A stretch of 64,000 bases of DNA from NCBI RefSeq assembly GCF_900115205.1, contig NZ_FOYQ01000001.1, positions 957,240 to 1,021,239 of the forward strand. The letters are read 5' to 3'. Under the pieces are notes generated by a model. It had not been told where the DNA came from, did no database searches, and worked only from the letters and a program-made list of their open reading frames with translations. Positions 29,651 through 48,886 of this stretch are shown piece after piece. The stretch's first letter is position 1. Each line of letters opens with the position of its first letter. Both the position numbers and the translations under genes were made by a program. This stretch comes from Robiginitalea myxolifaciens (GTDB lineage: Bacteria; Bacteroidota; Bacteroidia; Flavobacteriales; Flavobacteriaceae).

Positions 29651-30760
29651 TCAGCTGGCCTGATAGGACTTTTGGTAGGTCAGGGGTAAAAGCTCAAATC
29701 GCTCCTGAAAGCACTTGGTAAAATACGAAGGGCTCCCAAACCCACTATCGAAGGAAACCTGGGTGATATTGCGATCGGTTCGCAACAGGGATAAGGATTG
29801 CTGTAATCGAAACTCTTTGAGTAATTCATTGGGTGAAAGGTCAAAAAGGGAAACACATTTGCGATAGAGCTTGGATTTACTCATACTTGCACGGCCTTCA
29901 AAATCCTTGATGCTGAATTTAGGGTTTGCAAAATTATCCTGGAGGATAGTCATTAAAAGCAGCATACTATTCTCTTCTACAGGAGGATGGGAAAGAAAGC
30001 TAGTGGAATCATTTAAATCGCTTTGGCCATCGTCCTTGTATAATTCCCTTATGATAGAAGCCATAACAATCTGATTCGGGCCGGCAGTCAGACAGAGGTA
30101 ATCCGCCAGTTTAATTACGTCCCCAAAGATGCTCTTGTCCTTGTCCACCGGCATCCCCGCATTGATGCCTATACGCATCTCGATTAATTCTCCGGCGATG
30201 TGCAGCTGTTTCTGTACCGCCGCGGCACAGGCTATTGCCTGGGTAACCGATACAAATGAAGCGATAAAGCGCTCCCCGACTAATTCCACCTCCCTGCCCT
30301 GATTGGCCTTGATCTGCTCACGCATGATCTCGTGATACAGGGATAGCAATTTATGTGCTTTGTTAGCGCCTATTTTCTGCTTAAGTAAGTTAGAATCTTC
30401 GGCCTTTGCGACCAGAATAATCCGGAAGGAAGGATCATTGAAGATCTTCAGGTCGGGATCATCAGCATCATAGTACCCTTCCGGGTCTGTGACTCGGCCT
30501 AAAAAGGCTTCAACTACATTGCTATTAACCTGAACAATTTCATGGGGAATCAACCCATGGGCCCGATCGTGCATCTCCTTTACCGCCTCCTCATTCGGAG
30601 CATCTATCAAACAGAAGGCACTTCCTCTTTCTTCATCGACCCAATAAGTCATGCATCTGCATCCGTATTCGTCCTGAATTAACAAGTCCTCACGGTGGGC
30701 TTGAGCCGCATGTTTGGCTTCGATTCCCGGTACGATATGTCGATCCATATAGATTGGCAT
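29651..30760 (-). CDS. AraC-type regulator with DUF4242 and degenerate nucleotide-cyclase-like domains
   Basis: A three-domain regulator of 369 residues. Residues 1-90 are DUF4242 (MPIYMDRHIVPGIEAKHAAQ, GCRCMTYWVDEERGSAFCLI). Residues about 110-235 align with class III adenylate/guanylate cyclases (HEIMREQIKANQGREVELVG, MRIGINAG, FGDVIKLADYLC), but the two metal aspartates are replaced: K119 at the first site and GER (162-164) in place of GDG, so it is probably not catalytic. Residues about 275-369 are an AraC double helix-turn-helix (FEGRASMSKSKLYRKCVSLF, FDSGFGSPSYFTKCFQERF). It probably senses a ligand in the cytoplasm and controls the neighbouring DUF4242 gene and/or the divergent hydrolase. 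Confidence 0.88.
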   Translation of the reverse strand: MPIYMDRHIVPGIEAKHAAQAHREDLLIQDEYGCRCMTYWVDEERGSAFCLIDAPNEEAVKEMHDRAHGLIPHEIVQVNSNVVEAFLGRVTDPEGYYDADDPDLKIFNDPSFRIILVAKAEDSNLLKQKIGANKAHKLLSLYHEIMREQIKANQGREVELVGERFIASFVSVTQAIACAAAVQKQLHIAGELIEMRIGINAGMPVDKDKSIFGDVIKLADYLCLTAGPNQIVMASIIRELYKDDGQSDLNDSTSFLSHPPVEENSMLLLMTILQDNFANPKFSIKDFEGRASMSKSKLYRKCVSLFDLSPNELLKEFRLQQSLSLLRTDRNITQVSFDSGFGSPSYFTKCFQERFELLPLTYQKSYQAS

Positions 30761-32501: not shown

Positions 32502-33248
32502 TTACTCCAAATTGTAGCACTTTAAATCCTTCCCTGGATGCTCTGTAGCCAGTGAAAAAAGGCCAAATTCCGGGACTTCATACGTTGCAATATGCGTTTC
32601 CCGCATCCATTCAGGTGCCACGTCAGGTAGGTGCTCGAGGGTGGGTACCTGCTCCAAAACATTGATTCCCCTTAAGTCTATCGGAGTGGATAGTCCGAAC
32701 CCCGCTTTTTTGATCAGGGCTTCTTTGCGGGTCCATAACTGGTAGAAACGCGCTGCTGAATCGGATCCTCCCGCCGAGATATAATCCATTTCGGAAGCGC
32801 TGTAAACCCGACTTCCAACTTCCTGCACATCGATTTCCGGATTATGCCATTCCACATCAATGCCCAGCTCCTGGTTGCGATCAAAGGCAAGGGCTATCCG
32901 ATCCCGGCTATGGGATAAACTAAAATTCAATCTGGCCCCTACAGGTAAGTAGGGCTTCCCAAAGTCCCCCCTGGAAAACTCCTGAGAACTGAGTTCATCA
33001 CCGCCAAAAGCTTTAAGGACCTGGCGAAGGACCGCATGGGCAGCGACATAAGTCTGTCGATCTTTGTCAAACATAAAACGCCCGCCACGCTCGCGTTCCT
33101 CCTGAGTTATTAAGGCCTCAAGATGTGGGTATTGCTGTATAATCTCAGAATTAAATACCAGACAACTTCCTTCCAACCCGCTGGCCTGAAGTTTCTCCAA
33201 ACCGGCCAGGGATAAGCTGTTTACTTCGGGGGTGATTACTGCGAACAT
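32502..33248 (-). CDS. 4'-phosphopantetheinyl transferase (Sfp type)
   Basis: Attaches the phosphopantetheine arm from CoA to the serine of carrier domains, activating the two synthetases and the free carrier protein of this locus. Sfp-family motifs are clear: GDFGKPYLP, NFSLSHSRDRIALAF, GIDVEWHNPEID (magnesium ligands) and FYQLWTRKEALIKKAGFGL. The 248-residue length is typical. Its start lies within the end of the large NRPS gene (13-base overlap), so the two are translationally coupled. Confidence 0.94.
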   Translation of the reverse strand: MFAVITPEVNSLSLAGLEKLQASGLEGSCLVFNSEIIQQYPHLEALITQEERERGGRFMFDKDRQTYVAAHAVLRQVLKAFGGDELSSQEFSRGDFGKPYLPVGARLNFSLSHSRDRIALAFDRNQELGIDVEWHNPEIDVQEVGSRVYSASEMDYISAGGSDSAARFYQLWTRKEALIKKAGFGLSTPIDLRGINVLEQVPTLEHLPDVAPEWMRETHIATYEVPEFGLFSLATEHPGKDLKCYNLE

Positions 33249-40238: not shown

Positions 40239-41486
40239 CTAGACCGGTTCTTTTATGCCGAGCCAACGCAGCAGGTCTCCCCCTGCGCGAATGATTTTAT
40301 CATCGAGGGTTAAGTTAATGTCAAAAGCGCGTTCCACAAGCCAGTAAAGCGAAATTACGATCAGGAAGATAGAAGTATAGACCAGGAAACCGGAATACTT
40401 CCCGGATTTCCTGATGAAGTAAAGTATCGGAAAAATCAGGGCAATGATTACAATCTGACCCAATTCCACTCCGATGTTGAAACCGAGTAAGGATAGGGTG
40501 AGAAATTCCCCGCGGAAGCCCAGGTCGCCCAATACACTCGCAAATCCAAATCCATGGAACAATCCAAATCCAAAGGCGATAATCCAATCCCGTGATTTGA
40601 AAATTGGAGTAATGTTATGCAGCGCAGCCAAACCGATGGAAAACGCAATCACAGATTCTACAAATCGAGGTGGGAGCACCACGATTTCAAGGGCAGCTAC
40701 ACTCAGGGTTATGGTATGTGCTATGGTAAAAAAGGTGACTACCTTAAGTATATACCAGAATGCAGGTTTAAAAGCTTTTACCGGTTCCCATTCCCAGCGC
40801 AACCAACCGGTCGGGTTCTCCTTCCGCCTGCGTCGTACTACTGAGGGAAGAATTAAAGCCAGGAGAAACAGGATATGATCCAGGCCAATCCAAATGTGCC
40901 AAACCCCCTGTTTGATCATCATCCAAAAGCCATTCCATACACTCGAATCGGCCAGGTCCAGGGTTTGGACATCTCCAGTCTCAGAAAAAGCCAGGGAAAG
41001 GTAGGATTCGTTATTGATCAGTCCTGCGCGCCAGTTATATTCGATACCTAACATATTAACGTGACTCGGATCCTTATCTAGAAACACAGAATAGGAAACG
41101 TCGATCTTATCGGGATATCCCGCAGAATCGGCCAGCTTAAAATGCAGGTTTACAAACGATCCGATTTGCACGCGCCAAAAGCTGATTTCCCCTGTAAATA
41201 CGATAGTATAGGGCTTTCCATTGGCACTAAAGGAAGCGTTGGCCAGGATGTAATTCTGTAAGGCTTCCTGATAGGGTCGGACATCGGCTTCTTCCGGGTA
41301 TTCCGGGAGGTCGTAACCCAGATATTCAATCAGGTCATCGACATGCATTTCAAAACGTCCTTCTATCCCGTCGGTTTCATACATCCTTAAATAGATGAAA
41401 CTCTTATCCAGGGTATGGGCCTGAGCGCCAAATCCAATCAGGGCGAAAAAGAAAAATGCGAGTAATCGGTTGGGTTTAAGAAACAT
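40239..41486 (-). CDS. HupE/UreJ-type membrane protein with exported N-terminal domain
   Basis: A signal peptide (MFLKPNRLLAFFFFALIGFG then AQA) is followed by about 170 residues of extracytoplasmic beta-rich domain and then six or seven membrane helices with conserved histidines: VWHIWIGLDHILFLLALILP, FFTIAHTITLSVAAL, SIGLAALHNITPIF and FGFGLFHGFGFASVLGDLGF. These fit the HupE/UreJ_2 family. Relatives HupE and UreJ are nickel permeases, so transport of a metal ion is likely, the metal being unproven. It is the first gene of the leftward synthetase operon, 16 bases before the large NRPS. Confidence 0.85.
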   Translation of the reverse strand: MFLKPNRLLAFFFFALIGFGAQAHTLDKSFIYLRMYETDGIEGRFEMHVDDLIEYLGYDLPEYPEEADVRPYQEALQNYILANASFSANGKPYTIVFTGEISFWRVQIGSFVNLHFKLADSAGYPDKIDVSYSVFLDKDPSHVNMLGIEYNWRAGLINNESYLSLAFSETGDVQTLDLADSSVWNGFWMMIKQGVWHIWIGLDHILFLLALILPSVVRRRRKENPTGWLRWEWEPVKAFKPAFWYILKVVTFFTIAHTITLSVAALEIVVLPPRFVESVIAFSIGLAALHNITPIFKSRDWIIAFGFGLFHGFGFASVLGDLGFRGEFLTLSLLGFNIGVELGQIVIIALIFPILYFIRKSGKYSGFLVYTSIFLIVISLYWLVERAFDINLTLDDKIIRAGGDLLRWLGIKEPV

Positions 41487-41683: not shown

Positions 41684-41929
41684 GTGAAAAAAGACGAGAT
41701 CACAACAATACTTATTAAGTATATCAAAAAAGAGTTTACCAGGGATTCCGAAGTAGAAATTGTGGCGGAAACCGACCTTTTCGCAAGTGGAATTCTGGAT
41801 TCGCTGGGCTTGATGAAGCTAATCCGGTTTATAGAAGCAACCTTTGATAATCCCGTTCCTCTTATTGATATACTGCCGGAAAACTTTAGCAGCGTCCGCA
41901 ATATCTCGCTATACCTGACCAACGCCTAG
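41684..41929 (+). CDS. Free-standing acyl/peptidyl carrier protein
   Basis: An 81-residue four-helix carrier protein of the ACP/DltC type. The phosphopantetheine serine lies in ASGILDSLGLMKL, and the third helix region is DNPVPLIDILPENFSSVRNI. The start is GTG at 41684; no ATG precedes the first helix. It is the first gene of the rightward arm and lies eight bases from the second synthetase. It may carry a starter or tailoring intermediate and would be activated by the PPTase of this locus. Confidence 0.88.
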   Translation: MKKDEITTILIKYIKKEFTRDSEVEIVAETDLFASGILDSLGLMKLIRFIEATFDNPVPLIDILPENFSSVRNISLYLTNA

Positions 41930-41937
41930 CCGAGTTC

Positions 41938-44900
41938 ATGACCAACCCCACACCGACATATTACCCGCTAACCCCGAGTCAGAAACAAATCTGGACCGGG
42001 CAGTTGCTCTTTCCCGACTCCCCGCTATACCATGTTCCATATTTGTTCAAGTTCAATGGCGCTATAAATCCAGAGGTCTTACAAAATGCCTTTCAGGAAC
42101 TGGTTAACTGTACGGATATCCTGCGCATTGTTATTGGCGAAGGGAATGAGGGGCTGGAACAACAGGTACTCCCCACCTATACCTTTGCTCTGGAACGCAT
42201 TGAAATGGGGAGTGCGGATTTCGAAAAATCGGTCGAAAAATGGGCGCTGGATCGCAGTAACCTTCCCCTTGCGACAAACAAACCGCTTTTTGATGCAGCC
42301 ATACTGGAAAACCGGGAGTCCGGTTTTGTCCTTTACCTGAACCTGCACCATGTAATCACCGATGCCATTACTGCTTCCCTGCTCTTTGAGCGATTAAGTG
42401 GAATTTACGACAACCTAATACAGGGTAAACCAGCCCTCACCGAGCTGGAACTCCCGCAATACAGGGACTGCATCACCCCATTGGTTGCACAAGGGGAATC
42501 TCACGCTCAGGATGCAACCATCAGGTATTGGCAGGATAAACAAACGCGTCTACCCGTATTTCCGCAACTCGGAAGTCCTGGAAAACCAGGCCTTGATACC
42601 AAAACTACCCGAGTAGCAATTCCTCTTGGAAGCGAGCGATTTAAAAAGATAACTGAACTCCTGGGTCAAAAAGGGTTTGCCACCTTTACCCGGCAGATGT
42701 CCCTGACGAATTTTTTTACCAGTGTCCTAACTGCTTACCTGTATCGCGTTAGCGGACAACGAGCGTTTACCATTGGAACCCCGGTGCACAACCGGTATAC
42801 GCATCAGGAAAAAAAGACCCCGGGTTTGTTTATTGGGGTCTACCCGCTTATCAATAAGATAGATCCAGAGCGCTCCTTTCGGGAGTTGGCTGCAAGTAAC
42901 TATCAGGAACTGGCCGAGACGCTGGGACATTGTGGCTCGGGGATTGCCTCTACGGCAATAAGTCGGAACATTAATTGTATCGTCAACTACCTCCCAGCGA
43001 CCTTTACAAATTTCGGCGGGATGCCCGTTGAGACAAAATGGATTCATCCCGGATATAGTGATCCCATGCACTACATCCGCCTCCACCTTACGGAATTCGC
43101 TGCAGATGAACCCCTGGAACTTTCAGCTGATCTGAGCTCGGATGTATTTACTGCTGAGCAGATAAACAGCTTTCCTCAGAATTTCCTGGATATCCTGGAC
43201 GCTTTGGTTGCCCAGCCCGACGAGACCCTCGGTAAAATCTCCCGGGTTAACCCGGAGATGGAGGCCTTGTTTCTCGAAAATTTTGATAAAACAGCGCTGG
43301 CACCCGAACCTAAAACCTTCCTGGAACTCTTTCAGGAGCAGGTTCAAAACCAGCCGGAAAATACAGCGTTTACCCTTAATGATTCGGCAGTTTCCTATGC
43401 GGAATATCAGCAAAAGGCCAACACATGGGCTGCTGCCCTCAAAGCTTCAGGCTGCCAGCGCGGAGACACGGTAGCCCTTCAATTGGGGCGAACTGAAGAC
43501 TATATGTTTGCGTTGCTTGCCATCATGCAGCTTGGAGGGATATTTATCCCAATGCCAAGCGACTTACCCGCGGAGCGACGGGATTATATCCTGGTCGATT
43601 CGGGATGTAGTTTTATTTTATCCCGAAGCACCTTCACTACTCCGGAGGGAATTCAGGTATTAACCCCTGAGGACTTGAATCGAGCAGAACCTAATGAAAC
43701 ACCGGAATTCAATTCCCTGGGAACCGCAGATCGTGCGTATATCATTTACACCTCCGGTAGTACCGGAAATCCAAAAGGGGTAGCCATACAACACGGGGCC
43801 CTCGGAAATTACCTGCAGTGGGCACGGGACCGTTACGCAATCGATGCCCAAACCGTAATGCCGCTGTTTACCTCCTTAGGGTTCGATTTAACGCTGACCT
43901 CTACCCTGCTGCCTTTGGTTGCCGGAGGACGGGTTTCCCTGGTCCCTGAACCCGCAATAGGTCCGGACTTGGCGGCCTTGCGAATCTGGTCCATGGAGGA
44001 CATTACCGCCATCAAACTCACGCCTTCCCACCTCAGACTTGCCGGGGATCGGAATCCTGAATTGCCCAATTTAAAGACGCTGATCGTAGGAGGAGAAAAC
44101 TTTCAGACTGCCCTGGCCGAACAAGCTACCGCTAATTTTGGGCATGGAGTGGCCATTTATAATGAATACGGGCCAACGGAGGCCACCATTGGGTGTATTG
44201 TTCACCGCTATGCGCCTACCCAATCGGCTTCAGTCCCCATCGGGAGCACTATTGCCGGGATGGGTGCTTTTATTTTGGATGAGCATATGCAATTAACTCC
44301 TCCAGGGGTCCCCGGTGAAATATACCTCAGCGGGGCAGGCCTCTCCACTGGCTATATCAACCGTGCCGAATTAAATCAGGAGCGCTTTGTTTTCCACCCG
44401 GAATCGGGCCAACGCCTCTACCGCACTGGTGATGTAGGCATATGGAATACCGATGGCGTCATGGAATACCACGGCCGGAACGACGAACAGGTTAAGGTTA
44501 ACGGGCACCGGGTAGAGCTCCAGGAAATAGAGGCCGTCCTCGCCCAGTTCCCTTCGCTTGAAGGCGCCGCAGTGAGTCTGGACACCATAAATAAACCCTT
44601 GCAGGAATCGGAGGCGAATTGCCGCGAATGTGGTTTACCCAGCGAATATCCCTCAGCAGATTTTGACGAAAATAATGTTTGTCACCTATGCCGGTCCTTT
44701 GCCGATTATCAAAATGAGGTGGCGAGTTATTTCAAAACCGAAGACGATTTATACCAGCAAATTCGCTCGGGCACCAATTCAGACAATAAATATGATTGTC
44801 TTTCCCTACTCAGCGGTGGAAAGGACAGTACCTATGTGCTCGCCAAACTCATAGACATGGGCTTTAAGGTCCTGGCCTTTACCCTGGACAACGGGTATAT

Positions 44901-46068
44901 CTCGGAACAGGCCAAAGCCAATATCGACAAAATTGTAACTGCCCTGGGGGTAGACCATGTGTACGGGAGCACCGAACACATGAACGAGATTTTTGTCGAT
45001 AGCCTGGAGCGACACGCCAATGTTTGCAATGGCTGTTTTAAAACCATTTATACCCTGAGCACCCAGATAGCGCTGGAACATGAAATTCCCTTTATCGTAA
45101 CGGGACTGTCCCGCGGGCAGTTTTTCGAAACCCGATTGGCCGAAGAAACCTTCATGGATTTCCGGGATTCAGGGAAAAGTATCGACGATATTATCCTGGA
45201 GGCACGCAAGCTCTATCACCAGGAGGACGATGCGATTAAACAACTTTTGGAAACGGAGATCTTCAACGACGCCAATAACTTTGAAAAGGTTCAGTTTATC
45301 GACTTCTATCGCTATACGGATGTCTCGCTGTCCGAGTTACTTCGTTTCCTTAAAGAAAAGATTGGCTGGGAGCGGCCTACCGATACCGGGCGTTCTACGA
45401 ATTGCCTTATTAACCAGCTCGGGATCTATGTCCACAAGAAAAAGAAAGGATATAGCAACTATGCCTTCCCCTATAGCTGGGATGTACGACTGGGCCACAA
45501 AACGCGGGAGGAAAGCCTGGATGAGATCAATGAAGCCCTGGACGAGGAAGAGATTCGCAAAATGATGGGGGAAATCGGGTATTTCGAAGACCTGGAACCC
45601 ACCGATCAGCTGGTTGCCTATGTCGCCGGGGATAACCTCCCCAATAGCCAGGAGCTTCGAGCCTACCTTGCTGGTAAATTACCCGCGTATATGATTCCAA
45701 CTACTTTCAAAAAAGTAGAGGCGTTGCCCCTTACCCCTAATGGAAAAGTGGATAAAAAGGCATTACAGGAGCTCAACCCCTTACAACTGGGTGCTGCAAC
45801 CAAATACGTAGCCCCCCGAAACGATCTTGAAGAATTGCTTGCCGAACATTGGGGGGAAGTACTACAGCTCGAAAAAGTTGGGATCCATGACAATTTTATT
45901 GATCTGGGCGGACATTCCCTTGCGGCGATCCGGATAACCGGTCGTATTAACCGCGAACTTACCCTGGAACTGCCGCTGAGCAAAATATTCGAGCACCCCA
46001 CCGTGGCCGAATACGGGGTGTATCTCGAAAACAAACTGGAAGAATTGATGGCCCTGGACGATGATTAG
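41938..46068 (+). CDS. NRPS with adenylation domain interrupted by a PP-loop amidotransferase-like domain, C-A(AANH)-T
   Basis: A 1,376-residue synthetase. C domain: about 8-430 (HHVITDA at 137). A domain: from about 455, with A3 near 602-620 (YTSGSTGNPKG), A5 NEYGPTEATIG and A8 RNDEQVKVNGHRVELQEIE. Then about 340 residues, roughly 885-1222, are foreign to A domains: C895-R-E-C898, a second CHLC pair, SGGKDS at 959-964, CNGC at 1030-1033 and RLGHKTREESLDEIN. This is the layout of N-acetyl-sugar amidotransferases (WbpG/LegA type, adenine nucleotide alpha-hydrolase fold). The A domain resumes with LPAYMIP and NGKVDKKAL. T domain: GGHS, S1327. There is no TE. The A code reads D-L-T-K-I-G-E-I-G-K, nearest to Asn/Asp codes. 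Confidence 0.93.
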   Translation: MTNPTPTYYPLTPSQKQIWTGQLLFPDSPLYHVPYLFKFNGAINPEVLQNAFQELVNCTDILRIVIGEGNEGLEQQVLPTYTFALERIEMGSADFEKSVEKWALDRSNLPLATNKPLFDAAILENRESGFVLYLNLHHVITDAITASLLFERLSGIYDNLIQGKPALTELELPQYRDCITPLVAQGESHAQDATIRYWQDKQTRLPVFPQLGSPGKPGLDTKTTRVAIPLGSERFKKITELLGQKGFATFTRQMSLTNFFTSVLTAYLYRVSGQRAFTIGTPVHNRYTHQEKKTPGLFIGVYPLINKIDPERSFRELAASNYQELAETLGHCGSGIASTAISRNINCIVNYLPATFTNFGGMPVETKWIHPGYSDPMHYIRLHLTEFAADEPLELSADLSSDVFTAEQINSFPQNFLDILDALVAQPDETLGKISRVNPEMEALFLENFDKTALAPEPKTFLELFQEQVQNQPENTAFTLNDSAVSYAEYQQKANTWAAALKASGCQRGDTVALQLGRTEDYMFALLAIMQLGGIFIPMPSDLPAERRDYILVDSGCSFILSRSTFTTPEGIQVLTPEDLNRAEPNETPEFNSLGTADRAYIIYTSGSTGNPKGVAIQHGALGNYLQWARDRYAIDAQTVMPLFTSLGFDLTLTSTLLPLVAGGRVSLVPEPAIGPDLAALRIWSMEDITAIKLTPSHLRLAGDRNPELPNLKTLIVGGENFQTALAEQATANFGHGVAIYNEYGPTEATIGCIVHRYAPTQSASVPIGSTIAGMGAFILDEHMQLTPPGVPGEIYLSGAGLSTGYINRAELNQERFVFHPESGQRLYRTGDVGIWNTDGVMEYHGRNDEQVKVNGHRVELQEIEAVLAQFPSLEGAAVSLDTINKPLQESEANCRECGLPSEYPSADFDENNVCHLCRSFADYQNEVASYFKTEDDLYQQIRSGTNSDNKYDCLSLLSGGKDSTYVLAKLIDMGFKVLAFTLDNGYISEQAKANIDKIVTALGVDHVYGSTEHMNEIFVDSLERHANVCNGCFKTIYTLSTQIALEHEIPFIVTGLSRGQFFETRLAEETFMDFRDSGKSIDDIILEARKLYHQEDDAIKQLLETEIFNDANNFEKVQFIDFYRYTDVSLSELLRFLKEKIGWERPTDTGRSTNCLINQLGIYVHKKKKGYSNYAFPYSWDVRLGHKTREESLDEINEALDEEEIRKMMGEIGYFEDLEPTDQLVAYVAGDNLPNSQELRAYLAGKLPAYMIPTTFKKVEALPLTPNGKVDKKALQELNPLQLGAATKYVAPRNDLEELLAEHWGEVLQLEKVGIHDNFIDLGGHSLAAIRITGRINRELTLELPLSKIFEHPTVAEYGVYLENKLEELMALDDD

Positions 46069-46531
46069 GAACGGGAAACATATCAGTGGCTATTCCAGCA
46101 TCCCTCGCTATTCCAGCGAAAAGAGATTGCTCGCGGTCTTGCTGGCTGCACTTTACCTGCTGCAGCCCATGCAAGGGACCCTGAACGCCTGCTTCCAAAA
46201 TGTCGTTCAAATCATGGATTCACCAGAGTACATCATGGGACATTATTCTACGGATGCGAACGAGCAAAAAACCCATCGCTCCACAGAACACATTCTGATC
46301 AGCAAAAACGATAATAACCTCGCGGCCAAACTCTGGCAAAGCCTCTCCGACACGGATACCGAGGGCCCTTATATGCTTCCGGAACCCAATAAGCAGCAAA
46401 AGCACACACCCCTGCACAGGGAATTCTTACTGGCGCGCTGGGTAGCAGAAAAACTTGACTTTTCTAAGACTAGCATAGAAATGCCCCTGGTGATCCTGCC
46501 AGTACCTATAGAGCCGCCACAGGCCTCCTGA
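46061..46531 (+). CDS. Small exported or membrane-anchored protein of the peptide locus
   Basis: 156 residues, with a basic start, one hydrophobic stretch (RLLAVLLAALYLLQP) and a soluble, His/Asp/Asn-containing remainder (GHYSTDANEQKTHRSTEHIL). No named domain is recognised; small proteins of this build are often found directly before TonB-dependent receptors in Bacteroidota. Its ATG lies inside the synthetase stop region (ATGATTAG), so it is translationally coupled. The receptor gene follows after 120 bases. Confidence 0.7.
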   Translation: MIRNGKHISGYSSIPRYSSEKRLLAVLLAALYLLQPMQGTLNACFQNVVQIMDSPEYIMGHYSTDANEQKTHRSTEHILISKNDNNLAAKLWQSLSDTDTEGPYMLPEPNKQQKHTPLHREFLLARWVAEKLDFSKTSIEMPLVILPVPIEPPQAS

Positions 46532-46651: not shown

Positions 46652-48886
46652 ATGTTACGATTATTGAATTTTCTAATCCTGTTCCTCCTGGCCACGCCCC
46701 TGTGTGCGCATGAGTTGAACGGAACCATAGTAGACGCCAATAAACAGCCTTTGGAAGGAATTGGGGTTTACAACAAAACCAACGGGAGTTATACCTACTC
46801 CAACATGTCCGGATATTTTGAGCTGGACGGAATTTCAGTAGGAGATGAAATTTTCTTCTATGGCCTGGGATATGCCAACCAGGAAATGACCATCGCCGAA
46901 TCCGACCTGGACACCACCATTGAGGTGGTTATGCAGGAAGCAGCCCTTTCCCTGGACCAGGTGGTCCTGGTCTCTAAAGTAGACGCCCTTACCCGACTGG
47001 TAGATATCGATATTCAGACCAACCCCATAAAGTCTTCCCAGGAGGTGCTGCGGAAGGTTCCCGGCCTGATTATTGGCCAGCACGCGGGAGGCGGAAAAGC
47101 AGAGCAAATCTTCCTGCGCGGATTTGACATTGACCACGGAACTGATGTTGCCATTAACCTGGATGGAATGCCGGTGAACATGGTTTCTCATGCCCATGGA
47201 CAGGGATATTCCGATATGCACTTCATTATTCCGGAAACGGTGGAGAACATCGATTTTGGGAAGGGACCGTATTACGCCTCAAAAGGAAACTTTACAACGG
47301 CCGGTTACATCGGATTAAACACCAAGAAAGTCCTGGACAATAACTTGGTTACCGTAGAAGCGGGACAATTCAACACGCTCCGCGCCCTGGGGATGGTTAA
47401 ACTGGTTAGCGGAGAGCAATCCAATGCCTACCTGGCCTCGGAAATGTTGGTTACGGATGGATTCTTTGATGCCTCACAGAATTTCAACCGCTACAACCTG
47501 ATGGGTCGGTACCATTACAACAATAAGGAAGACGAGGAACTTACCCTGTCTATCTCACATTTCCAGAGTAAGTGGGACGCCTCCGGGCAGATTCCACAGC
47601 GTGCAGTAGACCAGGGGCTGATTGGCCGCTTTGGCGCTATTGACAGCACCGAAGGGGGAAATACTTCCCGCTCTAACATCTGGGCGAACCACCGCATTCA
47701 ACTCGATGAGCATAACCGGGTAACCACCAACGCCTTCCTGAGTACCTATGGCTTTGAGCTCTTTTCGAATTTTACCTTCCTCCTGAATAACCCGGTAGAT
47801 GGGGATCAAATTCGGCAGCACGAACAACGTACGCTGCTGGGTATGGAATCCGTGTACAATCATAGCTTCCACCTGGACGATCACAACGACCAGTTGCAAT
47901 ACGACCTTGGGGTTGGATTCCGTTATGACGATGTCAATGATGTGGAATTATCCCGGACCGCAAACCGAACGGAAACCCTGGAACGTTTGGCGGACGGTGA
48001 CATCGACGAACTCAACTTTTTCGCCTATACCAATTGGACCTATAAGAAAGGCGACTGGACCTTTATCCCTGGTTTGCGCATGGATTATTTCCGATTTGAC
48101 TATCGGGACCGACTCCCGGAGAATTACACCAGTCTGAGCGAATCCAAAATGTTCCTGGGTCCAAAGTTTAATATGATTTACGCGGCGAATCCGGATACGC
48201 AAATCTTCCTGAAATCCGGGTATGGCTTCCACTCCAACGACACCCGGGTGGTGGTTGCCAATAACGGCCGGCAAATCCTTCCCGGTGCCCTGGGGGCAGA
48301 CCTGGGAATAATCAGCAAACCCTTTCGCAGAACCGTTTTTAACCTGACGCTCTGGACGCTCTTCCTCGAACAGGAATTCGTTTATGTTGGAGACGAAGCC
48401 ATTGTGGAGCCCAGCGGGAAAACCCGGAGGATGGGTGTTGAGGCAGGTGTTCGCCAGCAGATAACTGACCAACTATTCTTTAACACGGATATAACCTATA
48501 CCTATGCCCGAAGTACCGAAGAACCGGATGGAGCGGATTTTATTCCACTTGCCCCGGACCTCACCTGGACAGGTGGATTGAATTATACCAACAATGGTCC
48601 TATCTCCGGAAGTATCAATGCCCGGTATATCGCAGATCGCCCGGCCAATGAAGACAACTCCATTGTGGCCGAAGGATATTTTGTCACAGATCTCAATGTA
48701 CAGTACACCGTCGGTGCCTGGAGTTTTGGGATTATTGTAGAAAACCTCTTCGATACCGAGTGGAACGAAACCCAGTTTGCAACCTTGAGCCGTTTACCGG
48801 GAGAGCCTGCAGCAGGGATAGAGGAAATTCACTTTACCCCGGGAAGCCCATTCTTTGCCCGCGGTCGAATCAGTGTGCGGTTTTAA
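46652..48886 (+). CDS. TonB-dependent receptor of the peptide locus
   Basis: Outer-membrane 22-stranded receptor of 744 residues. Signal peptide to about residue 19 (LFLLATPLCA), a carboxypeptidase-regulatory-like domain (LNGTIVDANKQPLEGIGVYN), a plug (SSQEVLRKVPGLIIGQHAGG, IFLRGFDIDHGTDVAINLDG, VNMVSHAHGQGYSDMHF) and a barrel ending ARGRISVRF with a terminal aromatic. The plug region is unusually rich in histidine. As last gene of the synthetase arm it is the natural uptake route for the locus product, probably loaded with a ligand. It is a stand-alone receptor: no SusD partner follows. A terminator lies 73 bases on. Confidence 0.92.
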   Translation: MLRLLNFLILFLLATPLCAHELNGTIVDANKQPLEGIGVYNKTNGSYTYSNMSGYFELDGISVGDEIFFYGLGYANQEMTIAESDLDTTIEVVMQEAALSLDQVVLVSKVDALTRLVDIDIQTNPIKSSQEVLRKVPGLIIGQHAGGGKAEQIFLRGFDIDHGTDVAINLDGMPVNMVSHAHGQGYSDMHFIIPETVENIDFGKGPYYASKGNFTTAGYIGLNTKKVLDNNLVTVEAGQFNTLRALGMVKLVSGEQSNAYLASEMLVTDGFFDASQNFNRYNLMGRYHYNNKEDEELTLSISHFQSKWDASGQIPQRAVDQGLIGRFGAIDSTEGGNTSRSNIWANHRIQLDEHNRVTTNAFLSTYGFELFSNFTFLLNNPVDGDQIRQHEQRTLLGMESVYNHSFHLDDHNDQLQYDLGVGFRYDDVNDVELSRTANRTETLERLADGDIDELNFFAYTNWTYKKGDWTFIPGLRMDYFRFDYRDRLPENYTSLSESKMFLGPKFNMIYAANPDTQIFLKSGYGFHSNDTRVVVANNGRQILPGALGADLGIISKPFRRTVFNLTLWTLFLEQEFVYVGDEAIVEPSGKTRRMGVEAGVRQQITDQLFFNTDITYTYARSTEEPDGADFIPLAPDLTWTGGLNYTNNGPISGSINARYIADRPANEDNSIVAEGYFVTDLNVQYTVGAWSFGIIVENLFDTEWNETQFATLSRLPGEPAAGIEEIHFTPGSPFFARGRISVRF

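Follow-up and report, generated by a model that had tools for sequence, protein, structure and literature searches.

A stretch of 64,000 nucleotides from Robiginitalea myxolifaciens (contig NZ_FOYQ01000001.1, positions 957,240 to 1,021,239; hereafter the window) encodes a nonribosomal peptide synthetase (NRPS) of condensation-adenylation-carrier (C-A-T) architecture, whose adenylation (A) domain is interrupted by a second, foreign domain (Table 1). Pfam recognizes five regions along this protein, namely Condensation (residues 8-440), AMP-binding (465-806), a QueC-type PP-loop segment (954-1026), AMP-binding_C (1224-1270) and PP-binding (1300-1358). The foreign stretch (~881-1222; inserted domain modelled as ~337 residues) lies between motif A8 (846-865) and motif A9 (1248-1254), and in the alignment of interrupted A domains the A8 aspartate (Asp849) and the A10 lysine (Lys1270) are kept in 75 of the 75 full-length rows. 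The protein is an interrupted A domain in the established sense, with an auxiliary domain between A8 and A9 and conserved A halves on either side. A sequence-only reading of the window had set the insert at 44590-45610, in the A8-A9 junction, and both placements are right.

The motifs that reading had named were all located in the protein: two N-terminal CxxC pairs (CREC at 895/898 and CHLC at 915/918), the PP-loop SGGKDS at residues 959-964, CNGC at 1030, RLGHKTREESLDEIN at 1184 and LPAYMIP at 1248. It had not mentioned an additional invariant cysteine, C1156, which together with C1030 and C1033 constitutes a CxxC...C triad of the [4Fe-4S] type. Both N-terminal pairs, SGGKDS and the three triad cysteines are present in all 79 aligned rows as well as in two further loci (L081 and L082), so that the triad and SGGKDS are each found in 81/81 interrupted loci. 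The NCBIfam profile TIGR03573 (WbuX, N-acetyl sugar amidotransferase; NAT) matches residues 895-1213 with an E-value of 7.7e-38; the score of 130.8 bits falls short of the curated family cut-off (203.2 bits). In the predicted structure the mean pLDDT is 84.5 for the insert and 84.4 for the A domain with the insert. A Foldseek search with the insert returned the N-acetyl sugar amidotransferase 8wex at the top (E 3e-11, TMq 0.56-0.58), followed by TtuA, YcfA, LarE and NcsA (TMq 0.28-0.41), with asparagine synthetase only at rank 47. By sequence, the best match among solved structures is mmLarE with its [4Fe-4S] cluster (E 2.7e-8), with 8wex behind it (5.5e-7). Together, SGGKDS, the model and the fold matches place the insert in the adenine nucleotide alpha-hydrolase (AANH)/PP-loop ATP pyrophosphatase superfamily, as had been read from the motifs.

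The same interrupted synthetase recurs widely. An initial search of 60 genomes, that of R. myxolifaciens included, gave nine matches at E-values up to 0.001; six of these, again counting its own, hold the insert in open reading frames (ORFs) of 1374-1417 amino acids (aa), and the other three are 27% identical proteins in ORFs of 380-415 aa. Of 397 genomes of the same family (own included), 39 gave a match. In 27 of these the identity is 67-100% and the ORF always measures 1373-1426 aa; the other 12 matches are distant, at 43% or less. A scan of a genome collection with one genome per species recovered 127 relatives; the 80 best were retained and fetched. Motif A8 precedes the insert in these 80 loci, and the frames are NRPS-sized or cut by a contig end in 78. 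A motif script detected the domain in 78/80, and in the remaining two (L081 and L082) it lies within NRPS ORFs that are 1989 and 1859 aa long. Two short versions, L066 (563 aa, contig-cut) and L072 (552 aa, uncut), keep A8, the insert and A10 and are without the N-terminal part of the A domain; of the two, L072 is possibly broken. Among the hosts are Flavobacteriaceae, Saprospiraceae, Cyclobacteriaceae, Acidobacteriota, Acidimicrobiia, Bradyrhizobium, Microvirga and Mesorhizobium, and a considerable share of the genomes are metagenome-assembled. A search at the phylum level added a C-A-T protein of 1339 aa (L133), adjoining an A protein and an acyl-CoA dehydrogenase. Since the insert recurs at this very place in further genomes of the family (67-72% identity) and across the 80 fetched loci (56-73%), chance and misassembly, the latter raised by the sequence-only reading as a possible refutation, are excluded. 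Over 75 sequences the insert has a mean pairwise identity of 0.686 and the A core one of 0.462, with the insert ahead in every pair and the two sets of values correlated at 0.87, a pattern that fits a catalytic domain travelling with its host domain.

The sequence-only reading had further ascribed the arrangement to N-acetyl-sugar amidotransferases of the WbpG/LegA type. This stands insofar as NATs (TIGR03573, WbuX/WbpG/LegA-like; PDB 8wex) are the nearest family overall, with homology over nearly the whole length, the N-terminal CxxC pairs, the PP-loop and a C-terminal TREE-like region in common. Plain membership was rejected on three grounds: 1) the score below the family cut-off; 2) a tree in which 41 rows (39 inserts and two Streptomyces relatives) separate from 32 NAT rows with support of 100/99, the inserts alone forming a group with support of only 86/71 (midpoint root, long branches flagged); 3) gene neighborhoods, HisH and HisF being found in 25/32 and 26/32 standalone NAT loci (labels checked on four members) and in 0/81 interrupted loci. 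Unlike NATs, the inserts also have an invariant CxxC...C triad and are embedded in an A domain. The insert is thus a NAT-like body with no linked ammonia partner and with the cysteine pattern of the [4Fe-4S] sulfur-inserting enzymes.

This pattern connects the insert to the [4Fe-4S]-dependent sulfur-inserting AANH enzymes of the TtuA/LarE/CtaC type, whose characteristic triad is present in its sequence. TtuA, YcfA, LarE and NcsA carry out sulfur chemistry on nucleotides, bases or tRNA; they resemble the insert in fold, at modest TM-scores, and differ from it in lying outside any A domain. A profile comparison of the insert with nine LarE proteins gave a probability of 96.4 and an E-value of 1.4e-9, with all three triad cysteines in register. 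According to a review, CxxC-C motifs are found in most LarE homologues and presumably coordinate either an iron-sulfur cluster or a persulfide (PMC8584467). The closest functional parallel is CtaC of closthioamide biosynthesis, an AANH protein described as thioamidating carrier-bound chains with [4Fe-4S] cysteines C154, C157 and C284 (PMC6772006). Compared by these described cysteines and their spacing, CtaC is close to the 1030/1033/1156 arrangement; it differs in being a separate protein acting on backbone amides of a beta-alanine chain, whereas the insert is built into an Asn-type A domain.

The substrate assignment derives from the specificity code of the host domain, which reads DL[TS]K[IL]GE[VI]G in each of the 77 rows that could be scored (two of the 79 aligned rows lack the region). 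As a control, BamA and the second BamB module of the bacillomycin D synthetase, which we take to be Asn modules from the residue order of bacillomycin, both read DLTKIGEVG, and the Tyr, Pro, Glu and Ser modules of the same synthetase have different codes. Over the nine code positions the majority code is identical to that of the bacillomycin Asn modules, and the window protein has I for V at one of them. The BamB Asn module is likewise the nearest (39%) of seven other A domains compared with the host domain. The papers tried for the Asn code, and for the His code mentioned below, do not print these codes. The code thus points to a host domain predicted to activate Asn, and the side-chain carboxamide of this residue would be the natural target of the insert. 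The rhizobial A-insert-T protein at L091:8504-11491, of about 1000 aa, lacks a C domain, five relatives are equally short, and the Asn-type code is kept in all six; hence the simplest target for the insert is Asn itself.

In light of the triad, which favors sulfur over nitrogen, we propose that the insert is an AANH domain that works in cis and forms a thioamide on carrier-bound Asn, a proposal that we hold to be about as probable as all others taken together. The host A domain would select L-Asn and load it on the adjacent carrier. The insert would then adenylate the side-chain carboxamide oxygen of the Asn-S-carrier with ATP bound at SGGKDS, and a hydrosulfide bound to the open iron atom of a [4Fe-4S] cluster, with C1030, C1033 and C1156 as putative ligands, would displace AMP to leave a thio-asparaginyl residue. 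The C domain could couple this residue to a starter acid delivered by a standalone carrier (probably pyrrole-2-carboxylate in many relatives), and a second NRPS would extend the chain, presumably with His, and release it. The product would be a metallophore, taken up via a TonB receptor, with a HupE/UreJ protein moving the metal. The sequence-only reading had envisaged a carbonyl that is adenylated and loses its oxygen to nitrogen or sulfur; as a proposal this general scheme gains support, and its indifference between the two atoms gives way to a preference for sulfur.

Several observations weigh against this proposal. The fold scores are modest, for 8wex as for the sulfur enzymes. In a profile comparison with 17 standalone NATs the insert matches with an E-value of 6.3e-36, making these its closest family, and the triad itself is no proof of sulfur: the motif script finds the central CxxC in only 2/32 standalone NATs (L108 and L112), yet L108 unites a complete CxxC...C triad with an adjoining class-I glutaminase and a HisF-type protein. 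Most hosts of the interrupted NRPS are presumably not anaerobes. CtaC homologues come mostly from anaerobes (PMC6772006). No sulfur-donor family is prominent among the conserved neighbors, of which only the leading families were identified; the closthioamide gene cluster is also without one (PMC6772006). A Streptomyces plasmid (sp. NBC_01216; L130:13077-17127) encodes an A-T protein with the code DARHASLMT and, after it, a protein in which a PP-loop domain is joined to a condensation domain. In this split version the triad is intact, asnB adjoins, and the neighboring A-T protein has no Asn code. Finally, in six rhizobial loci neither HupE/UreJ nor a TonB receptor was found, which speaks against a metallophore there.

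The affinity with NATs is what would be expected if the carboxamide oxygen of carrier-bound Asn were replaced by NH, the reaction that NATs perform on acetamido groups, to form a beta-amidino residue that could cyclise; the top-ranking profile and fold matches, the shared N-terminal CxxC pairs and the combination seen at L108 all agree with it. Such amidine formation is nevertheless unlikely, given the absence of HisH/HisF from the interrupted loci, the separate grouping of the inserts and the rarity of the central CxxC in NATs. Two NAT-like proteins, L134:4108-6138 (676 aa) and L135:4365-6179 (604 aa), examined from among four relatives of about 600-680 aa, bear an N-terminal glutaminase (GATase_6/7) domain, i.e. 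a predicted ammonia source of their own; the insert is without one. A partner for neither ammonia nor sulfur would be needed if the insert, in the manner of the second half-reaction of QueC, adenylated the Asn carboxamide and eliminated AMP to form beta-cyanoalanine on the carrier, and the lack of HisH/HisF is consistent with this. The QueC Pfam match, confined to the PP-loop that the two share, is just above its gathering cut-off (24.2 versus 22 bits) and is a point for such a nitrile synthetase and against thioamide formation; a weak match (E 0.35) to a PDB protein of that name also favors the nitrile. We consider the nitrile route rather improbable, because it leaves the invariant triad without a role and because the fold search gives TtuA, YcfA, LarE and NcsA, with QueC not among the 50 matches listed.

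The adenylated side chain might instead be attacked by a nucleophile of the carrier-bound chain itself, yielding a heterocycle; the iron-sulfur site would then be structural or missing altogether. A pyrrolyl-Asn chain could conceivably form a six-membered ring in this way; the rhizobial L091 protein, however, has no C domain to supply an upstream acyl group, and we regard intramolecular cyclisation as very improbable. For a non-catalytic, purely structural insert no supporting point was found, and the retention of PP-loop and triad residues in every locus, with slower evolution than the host domain in every pair, makes it the most remote of these explanations.

Several neighbors of the interrupted synthetase (Table 1) are conserved with it.

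Table 1. Features of the interrupted synthetase and its neighborhood in the window
Feature	Coordinates	Strand	Basis
NRPS, C-A(interrupted)-T, 1376 aa	41938..46068	+	uninterrupted ORF, Pfam domains
Condensation domain, residues 8-440, HHxxxD intact	41959..43257	+	Pfam
A domain, N-terminal part, to and beyond motif A8, residues 465-880	43330..44577	+	Pfam; code DLTKIGEIG(K), asparagine type
Inserted PP-loop (AANH) domain, residues 888-1224	44599..45609	+	profile match, motifs, alignment, model, fold search, LarE profile comparison
A domain, C-terminal subdomain A9-A10, catalytic Lys1270	45607..45747	+	Pfam, alignment
Peptidyl carrier domain (T)	45835..46011	+	Pfam
Standalone carrier protein, GTG start, DSLGLMKL site	41684..41929	+	recognised by eye
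Small protein, N-terminal hydrophobic stretch, overlaps NRPS end	46061..46531	+	no Pfam match
TonB-dependent receptor	46652..48886	+	Pfam; 64-66% identity in five first relatives
HupE/UreJ-type membrane protein (PF13795), divergent	40239..41486	-	Pfam, neighbour clustering
Second NRPS, 2328 aa	33236..40222	-	three condensation-type domains, one A, two T, one thioesterase (TE)
4'-phosphopantetheinyl transferase	32502..33248	-	domain search

By tblastn, 64/78 loci have a relative of the standalone carrier immediately upstream of the interrupted NRPS. Among the 81 loci, whose limited flanks make all counts lower bounds, the most frequent neighbors are the TonB receptor (61), the HupE/UreJ protein (59) and a small exported-looking ORF (43), followed by an acyl-CoA dehydrogenase (37), an ornithine-cyclodeaminase family protein (25), the 4'-phosphopantetheinyl transferase (PPTase; 13) and a glycosyltransferase (13). 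Outside Bacteroidota, HupE/UreJ is seen in L079, L082, L083 and Roseovarius. The second NRPS was read by eye from its motifs as C-A-T-E-C-T-TE, with the A code DSALVAEVW in the window and DSAL[IVM]AEVW in most loci, which we take to be of the His type. The small protein at the end of the interrupted NRPS occupies the same position as a small, partly His-rich protein of 43 Flavobacteriaceae-type loci and does not cluster with them by BLAST; several relatives have His-rich stretches, and the group is possibly periplasmic and metal-binding. These contextual connections suggest that the locus specifies a metallophore pathway in most lineages, though not in all.

The identity of the metal was sought by two routes. 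The TonB receptor has only weak matches, over ~110 residues, to BtuB and the colicin I receptor, and a riboswitch search of window positions 28000-57000 returned only a tRNA. No convincing palindromic regulator site was found upstream of HupE. Many loci (L045, L049 and L051 among them) share an element upstream of HupE/UreJ, TTTTCGAT, mostly followed by GA or AA, which is a possible regulator site; the background frequency of the 8-mer in L015-L062 is 0.12 per kb. Near the cluster (29651-30760) the window also encodes an AraC-type regulator fused to a domain resembling SCO4226, of a nickel-responsive family.

With respect to the starter, the neighbors of the relatives suggest a route from ornithine via proline to a pyrrole-2-carboxyl-carrier. 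The dehydrogenase of L018 matches best with PigA and the L-prolyl-carrier dehydrogenase, below their cut-offs. Many loci encode a standalone A protein with variable codes (DIFYLGV, DPFYLAL, DQFFRGS and others) that are unlike DVQFIAHV of the bacillomycin Pro module, and Pro specificity is not confirmed. In the genome of R. myxolifaciens there was no ornithine-cyclodeaminase match, in a search run without a positive control, and dehydrogenase matches were at 38% or weaker; the starter of the window pathway may therefore differ from that of its relatives. Rhizobia (L086, L089-L091, L093 and L094) have a short cluster of a PPTase, a TubC_N-thioesterase (by Pfam in L086, L091 and L093; not seen in L090), an A(insert)-T protein and an acyl-CoA dehydrogenase, that of L091 matching best with acryloyl-CoA reductase, below cut-off. 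This short cluster may yield a free modified amino acid.

The inserts of A domains named in the accessible portions of three sources are methyltransferases, oxidases, (keto)reductases and monooxygenases (PMC11355689, PMC8949500, PMC8097286). In the present protein, as in those, the insert lies between A8 and A9 and leaves the two halves of the A domain intact; the difference is in the nature of the insert, none of the AANH/PP-loop type being named in those portions (PMC11355689, PMC8949500, PMC8097286). A fourth source, in the part at hand, merely cites a review on interrupted A domains (PMC9259500). No paper pairing an AANH/PP-loop domain with an adenylation domain was found in the open-licence literature searched, in agreement with the sequence-only reading, to which no such A domain was known. 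Known inserts methylate, oxidise or reduce; an AANH insert, if our proposal is true, would add the exchange of oxygen for sulfur (or nitrogen) to peptide assembly lines, and its fixed Asn partner and natural fusion point could be useful for engineering. In its widest form the proposal is that bifunctional A domains make thio-asparagine on the carrier. They would be the first thioamide synthetases within an A domain and would catalyse the key step towards a widespread metallophore of the pyrrole-thioAsn-His type, and at least four phyla would have related enzymes; so extended, the proposal is possible but somewhat doubtful. An AANH insert of this kind also implies that a number of Flavobacteriaceae (27/397 genomes sampled) make a probably metal-binding product containing a new amino acid, with related enzymes also in rhizobia, Acidobacteriota and Acidimicrobiia.

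Versions on plasmids were also encountered. A plasmid of Streptomyces sp. NBC_00470 encodes a distant PP-loop protein with the triad (L132:7755-8903) beside an acyl carrier protein and a ketosynthase. Matches on plasmids of Roseovarius and Pseudohalocynthiibacter fall within an annotated NRPS and at a position without a listed gene, respectively. The two plasmids (L129 and L131) also share the accessions WP_165198430 to WP_165198437 for proteins next to the cluster, an indication of recent transfer.

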